Of a DNA stretch of 33,620 nucleotides, positions 3,286 to 31,754 are shown piece by piece. Location: the IMG/VR virus record IMGVR_UViG_3300047455_000203, positions 1 to 33,620 of that record; one strand, 5' to 3'. The DNA is from a virus. Each line of letters starts with the position of its first letter. Within the stretch, counting starts at the first letter, position 1. A model generated the notes under the pieces. It was not told the DNA's origin and did no database searches. It saw nothing but the letters and a program-made list of their open reading frames with translations. Both the position numbers and the translations under genes were made by a program.

Positions 3286-5082
3286 ATGGCAATCAATTTT
3301 CCTGCAACCTCAGGGCAACCAACAGATGGTAGTTATACACACACTGTTGGTAACATAACATGGTTATGGGATGGAATTACTTGGAGATCTGGAGTTTCTA
3401 GTAGTACAAGTGAATCTGACCCAATATTTACTTCTTCCGCTGCAGGTAGTATTACTTCAACACACATTGCTAATTGGAATGCAGCATACAGTTGGGGTCA
3501 AGGTGGAAATGGTGCCTCAGTAACAACATCAGATACTGCACCTACATCACCTAGTGATGGAGATCTTTGGTGGCAATCCGATACTGGATATTTAAAAATA
3601 TATTACAATGATGGAGATTCAAACCAATGGGTAGATGCTAGTCCTGGAGGTAATGGATCAGGTGGCGGTGGCGGTGGTATTTCACTAGCAAGTTTATCTG
3701 TTACTAGTAACTCTGTTGGTACTGCTGCACTAACATACAATAATGCTAATGGAGTATTTTCATATACTCCACCAGATTTATCAGCATATCTAACCTCGCT
3801 TGGTGATGCTGCTGGTGTTACTACTGCTAAGATAACTAATTGGGATACTGCATATGGTTGGGGTAATCATGCTAATTCTGGTTATCTGACATCATATACA
3901 GAAGTAGATACACTTGATACTGTAACTGGTAGAGGTGGTACTACTACAAACGATATTAATGTTGGAGGAATTGATATTGGTAGTGCAACTTCCATTACCA
4001 GCAGTTCTAATGGTGCTGGATATAATACAATTCTTACAAATAGTAGCACTGGTGATATTTACATAAGAGGTACAGAACTATACATTCAAGACAATGCCAA
4101 TACTAATGCGGCATGGATTCATTGTTTACCAAATGCTGGTGTTAATCTTAATTATGCTGGTGCTACGAAATTTGAAACCACTACTACTGGTGTTACAGTC
4201 ACTGGTGCTCTGACTGCTGGTGGTCTAACCTATCCATCTACCAATGGAACTAGTAATCAAGTACTGTCTAGTGATGGCGCAGGAAATGTACAATGGGCAG
4301 ATCAATCAAGTGGATCTACAGGTCAGACTTATAATATAACAGTAACAGCACCTGCAGTAGGTAATTCATGGTATGATTTAAGCGGTATTGATAGATTAGG
4401 TAGCGTTTCTGGTAGTAATGCATCTATCATTATTAATGAAGGAGATACTATTGAATTTCTTTTAGATAGTTCAGTTACTAATCATCCATTTTATATAAGA
4501 GATACTGCCGGTGGTGCTTCTGTTAGCAACCCAACAGCTTCTATTCAAGGTGCTACATCAGGGCAAGTATCTTGGACACCACAAATAATTAGTGGAGGAT
4601 CTGCTGGATCATATGTTTATGAATGTGGTAGTCATCCTGCTATGGCAGGAACAATTACTGTTCGTGCCAGAAATACTCCCAATGAAATTGATACTCTTGA
4701 TACTGTAACTGGTAGAGGTGCTACTACCACTAATACATTGTCAGTAGGATCTATAAGTGATTCAATAGGTCCACTAAGAAGACTTGGTGTTGAAGTTAAG
4801 AGTGCTGCTTATACATTAGTTGCTAGTGATGCTGGTAAAATGATTGTTCAGTCAGCTGCATCACAGAGCATAAATGTTCCTACTGGATTTACTGCTGGTG
4901 ATATGATTACCATAGTAAATCAAACTGTTGGTAATATAACCATTTTACAAGCTACTGGACTTACTTTATATAATACTGCTGATGCTTCTACTGGTACTAG
5001 AACTTTATCTCAACGTGGAGCATGTACTATTGTGTATACTGATGTTAATATTGCATATATTTCTGGTTCGGGGTTAAGTTGA
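3286..5082 (+). CDS. Tail fibre-like protein with embedded cupredoxin-like domain
   Basis: The product is 598 residues. Residues 1-36 match the N-terminus of the 468-1730 fibre (MAINFPATSGQPTDGSYTH and following). Two copies of a D-T-L-D-T-V-T-G-R-G-x-T-T-T-N motif (residues ~208-222 and ~469-483) bracket the central region. Residues ~346-461 resemble a type-1 copper domain: H400 in TNHPFYI, then C447, H450 and M453 in YECGSHPAM. A Gly-rich linker lies near residues 121-132. The C-terminal ~100 residues (from RRLGVEVKSAAYTLVASDAG) look like a beta-rich fibre-tip domain. It is probably a tail-surface fibre. The copper site is predicted from ligand pattern and spacing. A strong AAGGAG element supports the start. 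Confidence 0.8.
   Translation: MAINFPATSGQPTDGSYTHTVGNITWLWDGITWRSGVSSSTSESDPIFTSSAAGSITSTHIANWNAAYSWGQGGNGASVTTSDTAPTSPSDGDLWWQSDTGYLKIYYNDGDSNQWVDASPGGNGSGGGGGGISLASLSVTSNSVGTAALTYNNANGVFSYTPPDLSAYLTSLGDAAGVTTAKITNWDTAYGWGNHANSGYLTSYTEVDTLDTVTGRGGTTTNDINVGGIDIGSATSITSSSNGAGYNTILTNSSTGDIYIRGTELYIQDNANTNAAWIHCLPNAGVNLNYAGATKFETTTTGVTVTGALTAGGLTYPSTNGTSNQVLSSDGAGNVQWADQSSGSTGQTYNITVTAPAVGNSWYDLSGIDRLGSVSGSNASIIINEGDTIEFLLDSSVTNHPFYIRDTAGGASVSNPTASIQGATSGQVSWTPQIISGGSAGSYVYECGSHPAMAGTITVRARNTPNEIDTLDTVTGRGATTTNTLSVGSISDSIGPLRRLGVEVKSAAYTLVASDAGKMIVQSAASQSINVPTGFTAGDMITIVNQTVGNITILQATGLTLYNTADASTGTRTLSQRGACTIVYTDVNIAYISGSGLS
4321..4668 (+). other. Cupredoxin-like domain inside the fibre gene
   Basis: This segment encodes fibre residues 346-461. 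It has the linear signature of a type-1 copper protein: an early His (H400, codon at 4483) followed by C447-G-S-H450-P-A-M453 near the domain end. The Cys-x-x-His-Pro-x-Met spacing is that of amicyanin, whereas plastocyanin has four residues between His and Met. Flanking strands (EGDTIEFLLDSS, GSYVYECG, GTITVRA) fit a cupredoxin sandwich. Whether it binds copper is inference. Confidence 0.65.
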
Positions 5083-9841: not shown

Positions 9842-12800
9842 ATGTCCGTTTATTCCTATAATACACAAGGAATATTTCCATCAATCATTCGCGCTGCGAG
9901 TGAGGGTTTGGGCAGCTTTTCATATGTTTATGAACCAAGTATCATTGATCGGTACAATGAACTTGATTATGGATCATTAGCATTTAACCCAACTCCAGTA
10001 ACTGCAACTGAAACTGTAGCAGTAGATAATTTAAATGCTACTTTAACAAATACATTTTTAACAGATTCAGGGACAGGCACAGGACGGACAGGTGGATTTA
10101 ATATTGGTAGACATATTAGATTCAATAGTGCTAATAAACCTAGAACAGTAGAATTTAGTTTACCAAACAATATCAATTCTTCACTGACCTTTGAGGTAAT
10201 TAGAGGTAATGATATCAATGGTGGGGAAGATCCCGATACTGTTGCCGAGAGTTTAAACTTAGAGTATTATGATGGAAGTTCGTGGACTTCTATTGATACT
10301 GTAGTAGCGCATAATGACGCTACATTTAATGCTTTAAAATCTGTAGAGATTACAATTCCTTCTGTAGCGAGAACAGCAGGTACACAATTTAGATTAATAC
10401 AACTAGATCATAGTGGAAACGATTGGGATCACTATGGATTAAAATCAGTAACATATACACATACAACAACTCCAGTATTACCAACAATAAATTTTGGTAA
10501 TATTTCAGATATCAATGCCACACTAGAAGATTACGGCAGAGTTGTTTATGTAACTAATGTAGAATCTTTCGGATTTGTTAAAGTTGTTAGTGAAGCGTCT
10601 TGGAAGGCGACTAGCACTTACGAAGGTAGAGGCATTGCGTTTACCTTTGGTAGACAGACTTCACCAGCAGTATACGGTTATATCGTTGACGGAAAAGTCA
10701 AGGGTCTTAGTGGTACAAGCACAGAGGTATTTTCTCCGAAGCACAATGGTGTTGGAAGTACCTCTGTACTTGGACAATCGCCTATCGGTATTGGTGTTGG
10801 CATATTTGGTTCTGGTACTCTATTTACGATTGCAAGTACAGACGATGCATTCGTATCAACATGGACTAGTAGCGGATATATTAGCAAGGTTACAGGTACT
10901 GCAAGAGATATTACTCTTGTACATGAAACAGGATTTGGAGATCTATTCACCCTATCTAATGGACAGCAACGCGCTACAAATGCGTTCGTTGGATCTGGTG
11001 GACTTAAACTGGTTAGCAGAAAACCAGAACTTCCCGAACTATCAGACGAAAAACATACAGAAAGATACATCAATGATAGTATCATTGAATTCTCTAAGGC
11101 AGACTATGGTTATCTAACTATATGTCATCCAAGTGATATTGAAGATGTATCAGGAACATTATCCGGAACATCTTCTGGATGTATTGTACGTGTAGGATCA
11201 ACTGCAAGTATTGATCCAGGAACAACTTATGGTGTAAGTCTAGGTGCTAATGCTCCTAGTAACTTTATTGACTATGGTCTAATATCAGAACCTGCTTCAC
11301 CACAGGTAGACTTTGGTAATATCTTAATTACTAGCAATCTTATTCCGTTTGGATTGTTCCATCTTGATCCAGAAAATGGAGCGCAGTTTGCGTTTAATCC
11401 AACTTGGACAAGTAGAGGATACATCAGTAAACTTACTGGTGAAGCTAGTGTTCCTCTGGATGTATCCGTATTTGGTAAAGGAACCATCAGGAAACTTGGT
11501 GGTGATTCTATTACCAACTTTGCTCTGTTGCAACCAGGTGATGGTTTATTCGGATTCCGTAGTGATACTGAGATTGGTATTACTGCTGGAATTACCGGAA
11601 CAGGATTTATTCCAACTCTTAGTGGCGTTGCAGAATCCGTTACCTTTAATCCAGAAGAAAAAGATTTATTGTTCTCTCTTATTGGAGAGGCAACATTCTC
11701 CTTTAATCCCAACTGGATTGGTAGTGGTGTTCTATTCACTCTACAAACTGCAGTTGAGAAAACTGTATATGACTATGTTGGATCTGGAAGAATCTTCGGA
11801 TTTAATAATCTTGAAGAGAAGAAAGTATACGATTACAACTGCAGTTCTATCGTTCCTTTCCCAGAGAACGACTATGGATTTATTATCAACACAGGAGCAA
11901 TTGCATGTGTTGATGTTGACGGTGTTATTTCTGCGAGTGAAACAACAACGTCTGGATGTATCAAGGTACTTAATACACTAACGATTGATCAAGGTGTTAC
12001 TTATTCTGTAAGACCTCAAAATACTATTGCATCTAATGTCTTAGATTATGGATTAACTTCAGAGAACGCAGCTCCTCTTGCAGACTTTGGAGATATTCTT
12101 GGTACTCCACGTCTCGGAATGCCTGGATGTATTTACGGTCATATTGATATTACAGGTGCATCTGTTAATAGTCTTGCACCTAACTGGATATCTCGGGGTG
12201 GCATTAGTATCTTCGGTGAAGGTAGAGTTCCTCTTGATGTCACTGTATTTGGTTCAGGAAACATCAAAGCACTTGGTGGTGATTCTATTACCAACTTCAG
12301 TCTACTACAACCAGGTGATGGTTTATTCGGATTCCATAGTGAATCTCAGATTGGAATTGGCGTTGGTATATTTGGCGATGGATTTATCCCGACTCTCAGT
12401 GGTGCTGCAGATTCGGTTACCTTCAACCCAGACGAAAGAGATCTTTTATTCTCCTTTACTGGAGAAGCAACGTTTGCATTCAATCCCAACTGGATTGGTA
12501 GTGGTGTTCTATTCACGCTACAAACTGCAGTTGAAAGAACTGTATATGATTACGTTGGTTCTGGTGGACTCTTTGGATTTAACAACCTTGAGGAAGTCAA
12601 GGTTTACAGTTACAACTGTAGTTCTATTGCACCATTTACCGAACCAGATTACGGATTTATTATTGATCCAAATGCAGTTTCTTGTGTTGATGTTGACGGT
12701 GTTATTTCTACAGATACCACATCTGCAACTGGATGCACCAAGGTACTCAATTCGTTAGCAGTTGATCCTGGTGTTACTTACACCATTACTCCACAATACA

Positions 12801-15800
12801 CAGTTCCATCTTCTACTCTGGATTATGGATTTGTTGCAGAGAATGCTTCACCTCTGGTTGATCATGGTCATATTCTTGGAACTCCAAGACAAGGATTACC
12901 TGCATGTATCTACGGTCAGATTGATATCTTTGGAGTTAGTGATGTTAAATTCACTCCAAATTATAATGGTCGTGGATTTATTGATATTAGTGGTGTTGCA
13001 ATCTCCCCACTATTTGCTAGTGAAATTGGTAGTGGTCAGATCAAACTTGGCGGAAATTCCAAGACTAACTTCAGTCTACTACAACCAGGTGATGGTTTAT
13101 TCGGATTCCGTAGTGATACTGAAATTGGTATTACCGTTGGTATTAAGGGAACAGGAACTTTATTTGGATATACAGGAACAGCAGAGTCTACTACTTCAGT
13201 TCCTCCTACCGAAGAACCAATTTTCACATTCGTTGGAACATCTGGAGATCCTGCAATCCTTCTTGCACACGAAGGCACCGGTTCTCTATTCGCAATTAGT
13301 GGTGGAGATCTTAGAGTTCAGTATGCATATGAGACTACTGGTTCTATTACTCTATGTTCCAAGAAACCAGAACTCAGTGAACTTTCAGAAGAGAAGCATA
13401 CTGAAGTTTACAGTATGGATCTCTGTAGAGATGAACCTGAACTTGATTATGGAAGAATCGTTGATCTTTCTGCAAATAGTGTATGTCTTGATGTTGATGG
13501 AGTTGTCTCTACAAATACCACATCGTCTTCTGGATGCACAAAGGTAACTCTAGGATCTACATTATCAATTGATCCTGGAGTAACTTATACATTAACTGCA
13601 TTTACAACTGTACCAACAGTATTCGCAGACTATCAAGATGTATCAGATCCACAAGATGGACTGACAGATTACGGACATATTCTTGATACTACTGGTCTTG
13701 TCTGTCCGTTCGGTCAACTTGATTCACTCAAGGGTACACTGGTTGAGAAGTATTCTCGCGACACTTCTCTCTTTACCGAGAGTACAGTTATCAAGATTGT
13801 TGGAGAAGCATTCATTGTTGTTCCTCCACAATGGAACAATATATCTCCACCGATTCTTGTTCGCAATGCAGCGATTCCATTATTCAGTCTACGAACATTT
13901 GGTGGTGGATCTCTATTCGGATTCGGTGGTGCTACAGAAAGCAGAAGATACTCACCAGACGAAGTACAACTTCTATTCAAAGTATCTCCTGGTCCATTCA
14001 GCAGATTTGTTACTTACGACTGGCAACCTTCTTGGGTATCTCAAGGTACAATTCCAGTTTCTGGAATTGCAGAAACTCCAAGGGCAAGAATATTTACAGG
14101 ATTTGGTTCACTATTCGGAATCAATGGTGCAGCGGAAGCAGTATCATTCAATCCACCAGATATTACCACAGACATCAAACTATCTGGTGTTCTCACAGAA
14201 AGCTTTACTATTCCATACACAGGAACAGGAAGTCTATTCACTGTTAATAATCTGGTTGAACGTGTACTTGTTCATCACTTTGTATTTGGAACTATCAACG
14301 TTTCTGGTGTTGCTGCAACTCCAAGAGCAAGAGACTTTATTGGATCTGGTGCTATCTTCTCTAACGGAATTAGTTCCGAAGCGATTACCAGAAAACTTCC
14401 AGAGTTTACAGCACATATCAAACTTGGTGGTACATCCGAAGAAGTATTCTCCGCCAATCCACCAGAAGAAGGTACTGAAATCAGACTATCTGGAGATACA
14501 ACTCCTCAAATCCTTACATTTGCAGAGCAACCATTTGGAGTTATTCCTGTCAGTGGTATTGCCAAGACACATTATGTTCCAAGTGTTGTTGGTACTGGTA
14601 CATTCAGGAAGTTCTCTGGTGCATCCGAATCTCTCACTGTCAACCCAGACGAGAGGCAAATGCTCTTCTCCTTTACAGGAGAAGGAAGCGAGACTCATAC
14701 CGAGAATTACTTCGGTATTCAGAAGACAATCAGAATTCGCAGAGGTGCGCTATCTGACTTTGAGACCTTTGATTGGCAACCATCTTGGGTTGTTACTGGT
14801 ACTATCCCAGTTAGTGGTGAAGCAAAAACAAACTTCAGTCTACTACACAATGGTTCTGGTTCACTCAAAACACTCTCCGGATCTGCAGAATCTCTTACTG
14901 TCAATCCAGAAGAGAGACAGATGCTCTTCTCGTTTACCGGAACGAGAATTGCAGAGACTACATCTATTGTTGAATTTAGTACTGGTTCTCTATTCGGAAT
15001 TGGTGGTCTATCAGAATCCTTCACTGCATCGCCAGAACTACAAGCTGACCTAAGAGTTTCTGGTGTTGTATTTGTACGATATGTTCCCAATAACATTGGA
15101 TCGGGTAACATCTTCGCCATTAATGGTGTTGCAGAATCTGTAACGTTTAATCCAGATGAACGTCAGATGCTCTTCTCCTTCATTGGGGAAGCATCAGAAT
15201 CCTTCAGTGTTGCTGAGATCAAACAAGTTGAGATTGATATCACTGGAGATGGTGAAGAAATCTTCTCTGCAGTATATACAGGTTCTGGTTCTACTCAAAT
15301 TTCTGGTGTTGTTACAGAGAAATTTGTTCCGAACAACATTGGATCTGGTAATATCTTTGCTCTTGCAGGTAGTGCTGAATCTATTACCTTTAACCCAGAC
15401 GAGAAGCAAATGCTCTTCTCCTTTACAGGAGAAGGTACAGAAAGAATTCTTGTCAGAGAAATCAGTCAAGGTGGAACATTTACATTCTCTGGTACATCTG
15501 GAGATCCATTACTTACATTCGCAGAACAACCATTTGTTCAGACGAAGATCAGTGGCAAGGTATTCTTCACCACTCATCGCAGTATTATTGGTACTGGTTC
15601 ACTCTTCGGATTTGGTGGAGTATCAGAATCTACTGGAGTTGTACCGCAGACAGAACAAGTTCTGTTCAAGGTCTCTGGAGATTCTATCAACAAAATCTCC
15701 GTACTACATATTGGTTCTGGTTCACTCAGAAAACTATCGGGATCTGCAGAATCGGTTACCTTCAATCCAGACGAGAGGCAAATGCTCTTCTCGTTCATTG

Positions 15801-16360
15801 GTGCGGGAACAGAAAATACAACTGCAAGAGAAGTCAGTCAGGGTGGACTATTCAAGGCATCCGGAGAAGCTGGTGTTCTTGTCAGATTTGCACATACTGG
15901 AGAAGGAACAATTCCTCTCAGTGGAAATGCAACTACTACAAGAGCAAGAGATTTTGTTGGGTTTGGTATTATCCCAACTCTATCTGGTGCAGCAGAATCT
16001 CTCACTGTCAACCCAGACGAGAGACAAATGCTCTTCTCGTTTGCGGGAGAAAGAATATCAGAAAAAATTACCGCAAGAGAACTTGGTACTCCTGGCAAAT
16101 TTACACTTCAAGGAACATCCGGAGATCCATTACTTACATTCTCTGAGCAACCATTCGTTAAAATTAACGTTAATGGTATTAGTACGAGTATCAGATCCCG
16201 TGCTTATGCCGGATCTGGAACGTTGTTCGGATTTATTAATGGAGATGAGGCATTTGCACGTGCTCCTTATATTGCAAGTGGTTCAATCGCAATTAGTGGA
16301 TTTGGAATTGTACAAGTTGAGTTGTTCCAACCACCTCGCACATATGTTTGGATGATTTAA
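9842..16360 (+). CDS. Giant repeat-containing virion protein
   Basis: The product has 2172 residues with no signal peptide or membrane segment. Residues ~45-210 look like a discoidin/carbohydrate-binding-type sandwich (RTVEFSLPNN...YYDGSSWTSIDTV...GTQFRLIQLDHSG). Residues ~420-1290 contain four long units of ~256-266 residues, each opening with DYG-x-(I/L) and rich in paired Cys motifs such as C-x-D-V-D-G. Residues ~1290-2150 are shorter ~82-residue units with the consensus GSGSLFxxxGxxES...NPDERQMLFSFxGEG. The C-terminus is ELFQPPRTYVWMI. Such length and repetition suit a long fibre or virion-surface filament. ATG at 9842 has no clear Shine-Dalgarno element. I know of no T4 homologue. Confidence 0.85.
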   Translation: MSVYSYNTQGIFPSIIRAASEGLGSFSYVYEPSIIDRYNELDYGSLAFNPTPVTATETVAVDNLNATLTNTFLTDSGTGTGRTGGFNIGRHIRFNSANKPRTVEFSLPNNINSSLTFEVIRGNDINGGEDPDTVAESLNLEYYDGSSWTSIDTVVAHNDATFNALKSVEITIPSVARTAGTQFRLIQLDHSGNDWDHYGLKSVTYTHTTTPVLPTINFGNISDINATLEDYGRVVYVTNVESFGFVKVVSEASWKATSTYEGRGIAFTFGRQTSPAVYGYIVDGKVKGLSGTSTEVFSPKHNGVGSTSVLGQSPIGIGVGIFGSGTLFTIASTDDAFVSTWTSSGYISKVTGTARDITLVHETGFGDLFTLSNGQQRATNAFVGSGGLKLVSRKPELPELSDEKHTERYINDSIIEFSKADYGYLTICHPSDIEDVSGTLSGTSSGCIVRVGSTASIDPGTTYGVSLGANAPSNFIDYGLISEPASPQVDFGNILITSNLIPFGLFHLDPENGAQFAFNPTWTSRGYISKLTGEASVPLDVSVFGKGTIRKLGGDSITNFALLQPGDGLFGFRSDTEIGITAGITGTGFIPTLSGVAESVTFNPEEKDLLFSLIGEATFSFNPNWIGSGVLFTLQTAVEKTVYDYVGSGRIFGFNNLEEKKVYDYNCSSIVPFPENDYGFIINTGAIACVDVDGVISASETTTSGCIKVLNTLTIDQGVTYSVRPQNTIASNVLDYGLTSENAAPLADFGDILGTPRLGMPGCIYGHIDITGASVNSLAPNWISRGGISIFGEGRVPLDVTVFGSGNIKALGGDSITNFSLLQPGDGLFGFHSESQIGIGVGIFGDGFIPTLSGAADSVTFNPDERDLLFSFTGEATFAFNPNWIGSGVLFTLQTAVERTVYDYVGSGGLFGFNNLEEVKVYSYNCSSIAPFTEPDYGFIIDPNAVSCVDVDGVISTDTTSATGCTKVLNSLAVDPGVTYTITPQYTVPSSTLDYGFVAENASPLVDHGHILGTPRQGLPACIYGQIDIFGVSDVKFTPNYNGRGFIDISGVAISPLFASEIGSGQIKLGGNSKTNFSLLQPGDGLFGFRSDTEIGITVGIKGTGTLFGYTGTAESTTSVPPTEEPIFTFVGTSGDPAILLAHEGTGSLFAISGGDLRVQYAYETTGSITLCSKKPELSELSEEKHTEVYSMDLCRDEPELDYGRIVDLSANSVCLDVDGVVSTNTTSSSGCTKVTLGSTLSIDPGVTYTLTAFTTVPTVFADYQDVSDPQDGLTDYGHILDTTGLVCPFGQLDSLKGTLVEKYSRDTSLFTESTVIKIVGEAFIVVPPQWNNISPPILVRNAAIPLFSLRTFGGGSLFGFGGATESRRYSPDEVQLLFKVSPGPFSRFVTYDWQPSWVSQGTIPVSGIAETPRARIFTGFGSLFGINGAAEAVSFNPPDITTDIKLSGVLTESFTIPYTGTGSLFTVNNLVERVLVHHFVFGTINVSGVAATPRARDFIGSGAIFSNGISSEAITRKLPEFTAHIKLGGTSEEVFSANPPEEGTEIRLSGDTTPQILTFAEQPFGVIPVSGIAKTHYVPSVVGTGTFRKFSGASESLTVNPDERQMLFSFTGEGSETHTENYFGIQKTIRIRRGALSDFETFDWQPSWVVTGTIPVSGEAKTNFSLLHNGSGSLKTLSGSAESLTVNPEERQMLFSFTGTRIAETTSIVEFSTGSLFGIGGLSESFTASPELQADLRVSGVVFVRYVPNNIGSGNIFAINGVAESVTFNPDERQMLFSFIGEASESFSVAEIKQVEIDITGDGEEIFSAVYTGSGSTQISGVVTEKFVPNNIGSGNIFALAGSAESITFNPDEKQMLFSFTGEGTERILVREISQGGTFTFSGTSGDPLLTFAEQPFVQTKISGKVFFTTHRSIIGTGSLFGFGGVSESTGVVPQTEQVLFKVSGDSINKISVLHIGSGSLRKLSGSAESVTFNPDERQMLFSFIGAGTENTTAREVSQGGLFKASGEAGVLVRFAHTGEGTIPLSGNATTTRARDFVGFGIIPTLSGAAESLTVNPDERQMLFSFAGERISEKITARELGTPGKFTLQGTSGDPLLTFSEQPFVKINVNGISTSIRSRAYAGSGTLFGFINGDEAFARAPYIASGSIAISGFGIVQVELFQPPRTYVWMI
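11102..13444 (+). repeat. Tandem ~770-800 bp coding super-repeats in the giant gene
   Basis: Three complete units start at the DYG codons at 11102, 11870 and 12647, and a partial fourth starts at 13445 (spacings 768, 777 and 798 bp). DNA identity is locally very high. One 28-nt stretch (starting CAACCAGGTGATGG, encoding QPGDGLFGF) is identical at 11531, 12308 and 13082. The arrangement indicates expansion by unequal recombination within one reading frame. Confidence 0.8.
14642..16050 (+). repeat. ~82-residue short repeats in the giant gene (NPDERQMLFSF)
   Basis: The motif NP(D/E)E(R/K)QMLFSF recurs at protein residues 1601, 1688, 1770, 1851, 1975 and 2057 (Asn codons at 14642, 14903, 15149, 15392, 15764 and 16010). 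Spacing is 81-87 residues except for one gap of 124. Divergent copies occur in the upstream long units (for example NPEEKDLLFSL near 11650). DNA in the motif core is nearly identical between copies. Confidence 0.8.
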
Positions 16361-22331: not shown

Positions 22332-23870
22332 ATGGCTCGCAAGTTAACAACCGCAACGGTTGCATCCCAACAAAAAACGATAAATCCTTATTCACAACCG
22401 TGTTTCACGACTTATGCTTTAAACCATTCTCATGGTGGGGGTTATTATCAATACGACCATAATTTTAATATTGTGGCGGCGGATTTTGGTACAGGAGACA
22501 GCAGTGGTTATGGGTCATGGAGAACTTATACAACATCTGCTACTGAATTTTTTGAATCCAGTAGCAGTTATAATAGTACCCAAACAAATTCATCTGCATC
22601 TTCCAATGGTGGTTGGAATTGTTGCCATACTCCTATGGTAGGATATTTGGGACATATGTCTCATAGTTCTTCTGGTTCTGCTGCTGGCAACATGGGCGGT
22701 TGGGTCATGGCTGGTCGCGATAATGGAACAAGTTATAGAGCTTACGGTTTTAGAGATGTTTGTCCTATTGTAAATGAAACACATCAAGATTATGCAATTT
22801 TCAGCACTGAAAGTGGGAATACTGCACCGAACTTAATGTTCTTGAAGAGATCTGCAACTGAATATTATAATATGAAGTTTAATGGTAGGTATTCACAGCA
22901 GACTGTCATACCTAGAAATTATACCAATAGAGATGGTAGTACAGAGAATTTCTATGCAACTCATGGCGGTTGTTGCTACAACAAAAAAACAAATAAGTTT
23001 CTAGTGATGTTTACCACTAGTACTGGTCGGTTCAAACCCGTTGTTTATAACAACGTTCCTGATTTGCGAGAGTTTTCACATGCAAACTCTAAAGCATATG
23101 CCCAATCAATGAGTGCTCAGAACGAGGGAAATAGTGATAGCAGTCTTCACAATTTCTTTAGTAACTCTGCAAACGTTACTGAGTATCAACAGATAGAAAC
23201 TAATACTGCTTATAATAATTACTCTGGTAATAACGAAGCTAGATATAGACCAATTCCATTCTTATGTGATAATGGAGATATTGTAGTATTCGTTCAGACT
23301 CCAAGTAGTGGAGCTCACTGGTACAGATGGAAAGGATCAGATCAACAACATGATCAGAGACAGACTGACGGTCAACTCTCTCAAAATGGACACCACCATC
23401 ATAATTATACTTGGACTACCTCGTATGGTTACGAGCAAGGCAGACAGTTTGGATCTAGATGGCAAGTTTCAAGTGATGGTAAGTTTGCTTGGGCATACTG
23501 TCCTTCATATTATTATGGAGCAGGTGTTTATATGATGATGATCAGAATTTCTGACGGAAAACTTCTCAGGTATCAAATCAATGATAGTGGTGATGGAAGA
23601 CATCCTTTCCCGATTGGACCAAACTCACTGGGTTGGGGTAAAACGGCGAATGGTGATGGTGGCGCTGGAATGAGAATTGGATCAATTGATCTTAAATACG
23701 AAATGGATAAACGCACTTACGGAGAAGAATTATCATTGGATGGTACTATTATGACATATGCCTTTGAATGCGGTCCTTATAGTACAACTTATCCATGTAT
23801 AATTCCAGCAAAATATGATACTTCATTATTTTGCTCAGAACCAAACATGCCTAACATTTCGGAGTTATAA
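22332..23870 (+). CDS. Adhesin-like virion protein, copy 1 of a duplicated pair
   Basis: The 512-residue product is paralogous to the product of 24416-25897: both open with MAR followed by PYxQPCFxxYAxxHSxxGGG, share VGYLGHxGH, YGFRDV and N-QDWA/QDYA-type motifs, and keep a near-identical stretch TTSYGYEQG...GSRWQVSSDG. It is rich in Tyr, Ser, Gly and His, as receptor-binding proteins often are. Several Cys residues (PCF, CC at 'NCCHTP', GGCCYN) might form a metal or disulfide site. An AGGAC element precedes the start. The following gene looks like its assembly partner. It may be a beta-propeller or lectin-like adhesin, but this is not demonstrated. Confidence 0.75.
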   Translation: MARKLTTATVASQQKTINPYSQPCFTTYALNHSHGGGYYQYDHNFNIVAADFGTGDSSGYGSWRTYTTSATEFFESSSSYNSTQTNSSASSNGGWNCCHTPMVGYLGHMSHSSSGSAAGNMGGWVMAGRDNGTSYRAYGFRDVCPIVNETHQDYAIFSTESGNTAPNLMFLKRSATEYYNMKFNGRYSQQTVIPRNYTNRDGSTENFYATHGGCCYNKKTNKFLVMFTTSTGRFKPVVYNNVPDLREFSHANSKAYAQSMSAQNEGNSDSSLHNFFSNSANVTEYQQIETNTAYNNYSGNNEARYRPIPFLCDNGDIVVFVQTPSSGAHWYRWKGSDQQHDQRQTDGQLSQNGHHHHNYTWTTSYGYEQGRQFGSRWQVSSDGKFAWAYCPSYYYGAGVYMMMIRISDGKLLRYQINDSGDGRHPFPIGPNSLGWGKTANGDGGAGMRIGSIDLKYEMDKRTYGEELSLDGTIMTYAFECGPYSTTYPCIIPAKYDTSLFCSEPNMPNISEL

Positions 23871-24415: not shown

Positions 24416-25897
24416 ATGGCAAGAAGTATCACAACAAGACCTGCAACGGTAAAATCAAAAGTTCAAGATCCATATCAACAACCATGTTTTGCGGTTTATG
24501 CCATGGAACATAGTGTACATGGTGGTGGATGGATTCTTTTTGATCATAACATAGAACCGATTGCAAAATATGTGGGTGATGGAAACTATCACCATAATCA
24601 ATTTAGAACATATACTTCTTATTCTCCTGAATTTTTTAATAATTTTGCTAGTAGTCAGTATATGGAAACTACTAGTCATGCAAGTTCTTCTGGAGATCGT
24701 GGTTCAAATACATGTAATGTTGGTTACTTAGGACACCAAGGACACCTTAGTGTTACTGAGTATGCTAAAACTTCAGGTTATTTAAGAGGTTGGCCTGCAG
24801 CGCAAAGTTATACACCATATGGTTTTAGAGATGTTAATTGCATTGTAGGTGATATTAATCAAGATTGGGCATGGTTCTCTAACAGAGAGGGAGCTGGTGG
24901 TACTACAAGAATGCATTTCGGTCAAAGAAATACGGTAAAATATTATAATTTGTGGCAGAGAGAAGGATCTAATTTTATTAATATTCCTCTTGTTAGTGCA
25001 TCAGGTCCTAGTAATAGCAATACTACAGATGAGGATATGTATGGCAGTAGCTGTATTAATGTAGCGGCTAAAAAAGTTGTTGTGATGCAAACTGATGGTA
25101 ATGGGTATAAGCAACCAATTGTTTATAATGATTTTAGTGTTGACATGAGAGCACTATCTTTGTCGGGTAGTTATTACAGCGGAACTGCTGATGCAACAGC
25201 ATCCAAAACCCCTAGTGATTCAAAAATTTATCAAGCATTTGCATCTGCAAATGCAACTCCGTATGATAAAGCGTCCTCACGTGCTTACGGGTCTTATTCT
25301 GGTGCGACTGAGGCAAGAGATAGATGCCAAACTTGTATTACTGACGACGGACAGGTATATACATTCACGATGACTCCAAGTAATGGTGCAATCTTAGAGC
25401 ATTGGAATAGTGCTGGTGTTTATTCGGGTATTCTATGGAATCCAACTTACACTACCTCGTATGGTTACGAGCAAGGCATTAGATATGGATCTAGATGGCA
25501 AGTTTCAAGTGATGGTCAGTATTGGTGGTCATATTGTCCAATGTATTACTATGGATCAGGAATTTCTTTCGTAGTTGTACGAATTAGTGATGGTAAGTAC
25601 TTGAAATTCTACAATCAAGACTCTAGTTATGGGAGATCTCTTGCTCCGTTAGGCAAGAACAAATTGGTCTTTACCAGGGATCAAAATAAAGACGATCCTG
25701 GTACATATTATAAAGTTATTGATTTTGATTATGAATTTATGAAAAGAAGTAATGGTGATGATATTAATGATTGGGATAGTAATAGGAGTGCCTACTTACT
25801 TGATACTCCAGGAAACAGTACAGGATATCCATTCTTGGTTCCATCAATGTATAATACATCGCTGTTCTCATCTCAACTAGAATCAAACCAAGATTAA
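24416..25897 (+). CDS. Adhesin-like virion protein, copy 2 of a duplicated pair
   Basis: The 493-residue paralogue of the 22332-23870 product. It shares the N-terminal PYQQPCFAVYAMEHS, VGYLGHQGH and YGFRDVNCIVGD motifs and the segment TTSYGYEQG...GSRWQVSSDG at about residues 346-367. Outside these, identity is lower and many residues facing outward in such proteins would differ, so the two may recognise different receptors. No signal peptide or membrane segment is present. The only promoter-like sequence upstream is CTAAATAA (24373-24380), a poor match. It is probably transcribed by read-through from upstream. Confidence 0.75.
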   Translation: MARSITTRPATVKSKVQDPYQQPCFAVYAMEHSVHGGGWILFDHNIEPIAKYVGDGNYHHNQFRTYTSYSPEFFNNFASSQYMETTSHASSSGDRGSNTCNVGYLGHQGHLSVTEYAKTSGYLRGWPAAQSYTPYGFRDVNCIVGDINQDWAWFSNREGAGGTTRMHFGQRNTVKYYNLWQREGSNFINIPLVSASGPSNSNTTDEDMYGSSCINVAAKKVVVMQTDGNGYKQPIVYNDFSVDMRALSLSGSYYSGTADATASKTPSDSKIYQAFASANATPYDKASSRAYGSYSGATEARDRCQTCITDDGQVYTFTMTPSNGAILEHWNSAGVYSGILWNPTYTTSYGYEQGIRYGSRWQVSSDGQYWWSYCPMYYYGSGISFVVVRISDGKYLKFYNQDSSYGRSLAPLGKNKLVFTRDQNKDDPGTYYKVIDFDYEFMKRSNGDDINDWDSNRSAYLLDTPGNSTGYPFLVPSMYNTSLFSSQLESNQD

Positions 25898-31430: not shown

Positions 31431-31754
31431 ATGAAATTTATTATCAGTTTTCTTTTTACCATTTTTATTGCTGCTCCTGTATGGGCAGTAGATGTATCAA
31501 TGGGTGCCGGTGGTAACCTAGTATTTGAACCAAATGAGATCTCAATCTCTGCAGGAGATACGGTCCACTTCATCAATGAAGCACTACCTCCTCACAATAT
31601 TATTGTAGAAGGTCGTGCAGATCTCTCTAGAGAAGCACTACTGTTTGCTCCTGGAGAAACACAGGATGTTGTATTTGCTGATGCAGGAGACTATGAGTTC
31701 TTCTGTGGTCCTCACCAGGGCGCAGGTATGACTGGAGTTATTCACGTAAATTAA
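31431..31754 (+). CDS. petE: Plastocyanin
   Basis: The 107-residue product starts with a signal peptide (residues 1-19, cleavage expected after VWA). The mature domain has all type-1 copper ligands with plastocyanin spacing: H55 in LPPHNI, then C92-G-P-H95-Q-G-A-G-M100. Plastocyanin is a lumenal electron carrier between cytochrome b6f and photosystem I or cytochrome oxidase. Phage petE is a known auxiliary metabolic gene of cyanomyoviruses and is thought to keep electron flow going during infection. It is slightly shorter than many cyanobacterial forms. It starts with no strong Shine-Dalgarno element. Confidence 0.92.
   Translation: MKFIISFLFTIFIAAPVWAVDVSMGAGGNLVFEPNEISISAGDTVHFINEALPPHNIIVEGRADLSREALLFAPGETQDVVFADAGDYEFFCGPHQGAGMTGVIHVN

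Follow-up and report, generated by a model that had tools for sequence, protein, structure and literature searches.

A tail-fibre gene and its embedded domain

The window, by which we mean the whole 33.6-kb stretch of viral DNA analysed here, carries tail, neck and auxiliary genes of a cyanomyovirus. The open reading frame at 3286–5082 encodes a 598-aa tail-fibre-like protein, with tail fibre, fibre assembly and neck genes as its neighbours. Its place in the tail gene block and its family match agree, and we infer that the protein is incorporated in the virion. The features that matter below are:

3286–5082, + strand: cyanophage tail-fibre-like protein, 598 aa, carrier of the domain (phrog_9729 tail fiber protein, E 1.6e-56)
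3901–3950, + strand: 50-nt direct repeat encoding TLDTVTGRG, upstream copy (repeat search)
4321–4668, + strand: predicted cupredoxin domain, fibre residues 346–461 (AlphaFold2 model, structural neighbours, profile homology)
4483–4485, + strand: His400, putative first equatorial ligand, aligned to the N-terminal ligand His of plastocyanin (229/237 copies)
4624–4626, + strand: Cys447, putative thiolate ligand (229/237 copies)
4633–4635, + strand: His450, putative second equatorial ligand (225/234 copies)
4642–4644, + strand: Met453, putative axial ligand, replaced by Gln, Leu or Glu in some relatives (217/234 copies)
4684–4733, + strand: 50-nt direct repeat, downstream copy, 15 nt past the domain and 88% identical to the upstream copy (repeat search)
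31431–31754, + strand: plastocyanin PetE, a separate phage gene (phrog_515, E 3e-58; 16 bits to the fibre-domain profile)

Reading the codons confirms His400, Cys447, His450 and Met453 at the positions given in the original prediction, and the distribution of the quartet turns out to be wider than was supposed there. The whole fibre has 6 histidines, 3 cysteines and 4 methionines, four of which make up this quartet. A six-frame translation of the window contains the loop pattern C-x-x-H-x-x-M four times. Only the occurrence in the fibre lies within a stretch that matches cupredoxins, and of the remaining three, two contain stop codons. Elsewhere in the window, the tail block includes a 2172-aa protein with many diverged repeats (9842–16360), and a paralogous pair of ~500-aa proteins (22332–23870 and 24416–25897) is found with a small gene after each and no PHROG match.

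The domain has the appearance of a cassette. Of 26 complete fibres with N-terminal sequence in common, 20 lack it. The repeat doublet was detected only in the five nearest relatives of the window's fibre, and all five have the domain. The downstream repeat copy at 4684–4733 is a likely cassette border. Against relatives at ~74% identity, the dN/dS of the domain is 0.55–0.6, the same as in the rest of the fibre, and so gives no specific sign of a receptor-driven surface.

Predicted fold and conservation of the ligand site

Taken alone, the window domain gives weak signals, with 13.6 bits to the Pfam family Copper-bind (PF00127), whose gathering score of 21.2 is exceeded by relatives in P-SSM2 and elsewhere, and a weak PDB match to Cu nitrite reductase (E 2.9e-4). 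A tblastn search with the domain retrieved relatives in 48 phage records, and iterative HMM searching collected 35 domain copies in 25 phage loci and the window. When a profile of 24 phage copies is compared with the PDB, the matches are clearer, between about 3e-7 and 1e-5: Cu nitrite reductase (3.3e-7), plastocyanin (1.3e-6), rusticyanin (3.6e-6) and amicyanin (1.4e-5), with His400, Cys447, His450 and Met453 aligned to the copper ligands of the last three.

The AlphaFold2 model of the domain, made from 74 sequences of the window and IMG/VR loci, has a pLDDT of 89.3 and a pTM of 0.85, and places nine strands, folded as a cupredoxin-type Greek-key beta-sandwich, over fibre residues 348–460, in agreement with the proposed borders at 346 and 461. 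Foldseek PDB matches listed for the model are small laccases, rusticyanin and Cu nitrite reductase. In VIA-align, the best neighbour is the tethered cupredoxin domain of the three-domain Cu nitrite reductase of Hyphomicrobium denitrificans (Z 10.1, rmsd 3.2 over 101 residues), followed by laccases and rusticyanin at Z ~9; such middling scores may reflect a common topology, yet all the neighbours listed are cupredoxins and the sequence evidence is concordant. Prediction of the whole fibre, from five sequences, was uninformative (pLDDT 40). Model and profiles together make it nearly certain that the domain is a cupredoxin with an intact type-1 copper site, which bears out the cupredoxin-like fold first proposed.

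The label ‘amicyanin-type’, also part of that proposal, holds for the loop spacing C447-x-x-H450-x-x-M453. It holds for the spacing only, the profile being no closer to amicyanin than to plastocyanin or rusticyanin. We rejected descent of the domain as a copy of the phage PetE, to which it has only remote profile similarity (16 bits) and whose loop is longer (C-x-x-H-x4-M), in line with the earlier view that it is not a simple copy.

Conservation over 93 columns was ranked in 237 non-redundant viral copies, some of them from scans seeded with pieces of the motif, which biases the counts towards C, H and M. Cys447, His400 and His450 take the first three ranks and Met453 the eighth. Loop positions 448, 449 and 454 are by comparison among the most variable, at 3.0–3.15 bits against a mean of 2.15. 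The seeding makes the unseeded copies and an N-terminally seeded gp10-like set the appropriate controls. All 25 full-length copies in the phage records found by tblastn are HCHM, as are 48 of 48 intact C-terminal domains in gp10-like proteins fetched by their N-terminal peptides; the latter set also holds one domain truncated where its contig stops and one additional HCHQ domain in an internal position. A chance origin of the motif is ruled out by the 35 HMM copies in 25 phage loci and by the uniform H-C-H-M of the unseeded full-length copies.

The quartet is HCHM in 215 of 234 copies, HCHQ in 8, HCHL and HCHE in 1 each, and YCYY in 4, with YSAM, DSTI, ESSA, TSSA and HNTM seen once each. A variable axial M, Q, L or E above an invariant His-Cys-His is what known type-1 copper sites habitually show. 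The ligand set is absent in 9 of the 234 copies, from which we conclude that the fold alone can be useful. Homologues that keep the fold but lose Cys or His, named beforehand as evidence against the site, are confined to this minority, and there the ligands go together. Both histidines are kept in 76 copies and lost in 8, His450 alone is lost in 1 and His400 alone in none (Fisher p 2e-10, a significance overstated by kinship among copies such as the four with YCYY). This joint loss supports a shared metal site. A clade with an axial Gln (C-x-x-H-x-x-Q, stellacyanin-like) lies at about residues 1400–1525 of giant virion proteins (loci L063, L086, L095, L148 and L154); it has in addition the stretch DGDHNGNGH, a possible second metal site.

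Distribution over virion proteins

The fibre domain is one member of a large family. In gp10-like connectors, which have PF07880 at the N-terminus, it occupies the extreme C-terminus, and 337 phage records, every one of them cyanophage or marine, match this version. With ~440 Synechococcus and Cyanophage records returned by a gp15 query, the gp10 form is widespread, though some phages lack it. The domain is also found in ~1800-aa proteins of P-HM1, P-HM2 and MED4-213 annotated as hypothetical or immunoglobulin, in the P-SSM2 spike that ends in Peptidase_S74, and in S8-peptidase structural proteins of S-CAM4, ACG-2014e/h/i/j and S-H9-1. Proximal fibres and giant virion proteins have copies as well. 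P-GSP1 and an actinobacterial phage have one copy each. In whole-genome profile searches each carrier phage shows 1–5 matches, of which a few with weak scores are apparently plastocyanin genes; P-HM2 has at least two strong copies. The domain profile finds no match in T4, P-SSP7, HTVC008M or S-PM2, the last giving only a marginal match with the gp10 query. Its absence from S-PM2, HTVC008M and P-SSP7 indicates that the domain is dispensable.

The cellular relatives are found in marine Flavobacteria, as the C-terminal domain of surface proteins that also carry InlB repeats and Ig-like and DUF285 domains. A tree that combines viral with cellular copies, built on 98 columns, is poorly resolved.

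Several architectures were noted in passing. Two cupredoxin copies per protein, annotated as PF07686 or immunoglobulin domain, are present in PHM2_106 of P-HM2 (L006:9967-15450) and at loci L010 and L011. PF14240 YHYH domains share a protein with the cupredoxin in a 3273-aa marine virion protein (L126:694-10512) and in an actinobacterial phage (L430:2140-3507). In the S-CAM1 tail fibre (L021:2293-4545) and its near-copy G005, the domain is in two pieces with their order swapped, the C-terminal piece with the motif (YWYQCTAHPNM) lying upstream of a motif-less N-terminal piece, as in a circular permutation or two broken copies. Surface proteins of the InlB-type/Ig-like/DUF285 kind that end in a cupredoxin were seen at L285, L264, L239, L268 and L339, from marine Flavobacteria and other Bacteroidota.

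Possible role of the site and likeness to known systems

We consider the domain most likely to be a mobile surface module, loaded with copper, whose task would be to stabilise or present a surface for binding. On this reading the fibre domain is a genuine cupredoxin with a type-1 site formed by His400, Cys447 and His450 and an axial Met453, swappable as a cassette in the cyanomyovirus fibre and belonging to the family on marine cyanophage tail, fibre and baseplate proteins. It would take up copper either at a late stage of infection, inside the cell, or once the cell has lysed, with host copper proteins or seawater as the source. The metal would lock the beta-sandwich and the ligand loops, while the variable loop and the surface around the site would serve for contact or adhesion. 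The invariance of the ligands argues that a metal matters, and a contact role is favoured by the kinship with bacterial adhesin-type proteins and by cassette exchange. Copper is probably bound in the virion; whether the role is one of surface and stability, rather than redox or bait, is evenly balanced, and the reading as a whole is somewhat favoured. Against it stand the ligand-less copies, the phages without the domain and the unremarkable dN/dS; in addition, virions are assembled in the cytoplasm, where copper is scarce, and we know of no route by which the copper would be loaded.

Ligand conservation also bears on what the site would be if copper were not bound. The cupredoxin fold may act as a binding or spacer module with a site that is vestigial or serves folding only, in a metal-free virion, much as many fibre modules are metal-free beta-sandwiches; ligand-less copies (YCYY, ESSA, TSSA, DSTI, YSAM) do exist. 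We think this quite unlikely, because the ligand columns are the most conserved across strongly diverged copies, the 48 unbiased gp10-like domains all keep their ligands, and losses come as a set. Another metal such as zinc, which cupredoxin sites accept in vitro, is very unlikely given that an invariant His-Cys-His together with an axial M/Q/L/E is the pattern of type-1 copper. Equally slim is the case for a copper ‘Ferrojan horse’, in which a host metal-uptake receptor would recognise the copper-loaded fibre. A type-1 site lies buried instead of being exposed to a receptor; the domain is also found in a baseplate protein, in a peptidase-type structural protein and outside cyanophages; and no such copper receptor is known to us in marine picocyanobacteria. 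The idea has a precedent in phage fibres that hold iron by HxH motifs (T4 gp37; alterophage R22Y), for which an uptake-receptor hypothesis has been discussed (PMC11705849).

Type-1 sites are built for electron transfer, and the tail could accordingly carry an electron-transfer or redox-sensing site, at which a change in copper redox state at the cell surface gates adsorption or triggering. Adsorption is light dependent in several cyanomyoviruses (PMC2984593); P-HM2, with its strong copies, barely adsorbs in the dark, and adsorption of P-SSP7, which lacks the domain, does not depend on light (PMC7112961), although two phages make no correlation. The proposal also meets the difficulty that no redox partner is known on the virion or the cell surface. 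S-PM2, reportedly among the phages with light-dependent adsorption in the 2010 work of Jia, has no detectable copy. This weakens redox gating, and with it light-gated adsorption as a general role; we regard a redox site as unlikely. A bolder version, with tens of redox-active type-1 coppers on baseplate and fibres probing the cell surface for its redox or metal state and helping to time infection, strikes us as highly improbable.

The copper-loaded surface module, if correct, would have consequences beyond this fibre. Hundreds of cyanobacterial viruses have the domain in tail and baseplate proteins and may carry copper in their infecting machinery, a pointer to a metal cofactor in the apparatus with which some of the ocean’s most abundant viruses infect. 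Many T4-like cyanophage gp10-like baseplate proteins appear to end in an intact copper-site domain, for which existing annotations say only connector, hypothetical or immunoglobulin-like. Were copper bound there, the number would be of the order of 18 or more per virion, assuming T4 stoichiometry of the gp10-like protein; phages would then carry copper besides iron, and both adsorption and the stability of the particle could respond to the state of the metal. Cupredoxins are already known, as are phage fibres that bear a metal, the latter from the iron HxH fibres (PMC11705849). In the open-access literature we found no paper on a cupredoxin or type-1 copper-site domain in phage fibres or baseplates.

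Among known systems, the plastocyanin/azurin superfamily (PF00127) shares the predicted fold, the four ligands in order and the profile similarity, but its members are soluble periplasmic or lumenal carriers, whereas the phage domain is embedded in fibre and baseplate proteins. PetE, of the same superfamily and in the same window, is likewise a soluble photosynthetic carrier, distant in profile and with its longer loop. Amicyanin has the same ligand loop spacing, C-x-x-H-x-x-M, but its profile similarity is not above that of plastocyanin or rusticyanin, and its methylamine dehydrogenase context is absent here. Like the phage domain, the tethered domain of three-domain Cu nitrite reductase, its top structural neighbour, is a cupredoxin fused to a larger protein, which there is an enzyme and here a structural protein. 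The HxH fibres of T4 gp37 and R22Y also place a metal-binding motif in a phage tail fibre (PMC11705849), but as octahedral iron between the chains of a trimer, in contrast to the mononuclear His-Cys-His-Met site predicted inside one chain of the window fibre.
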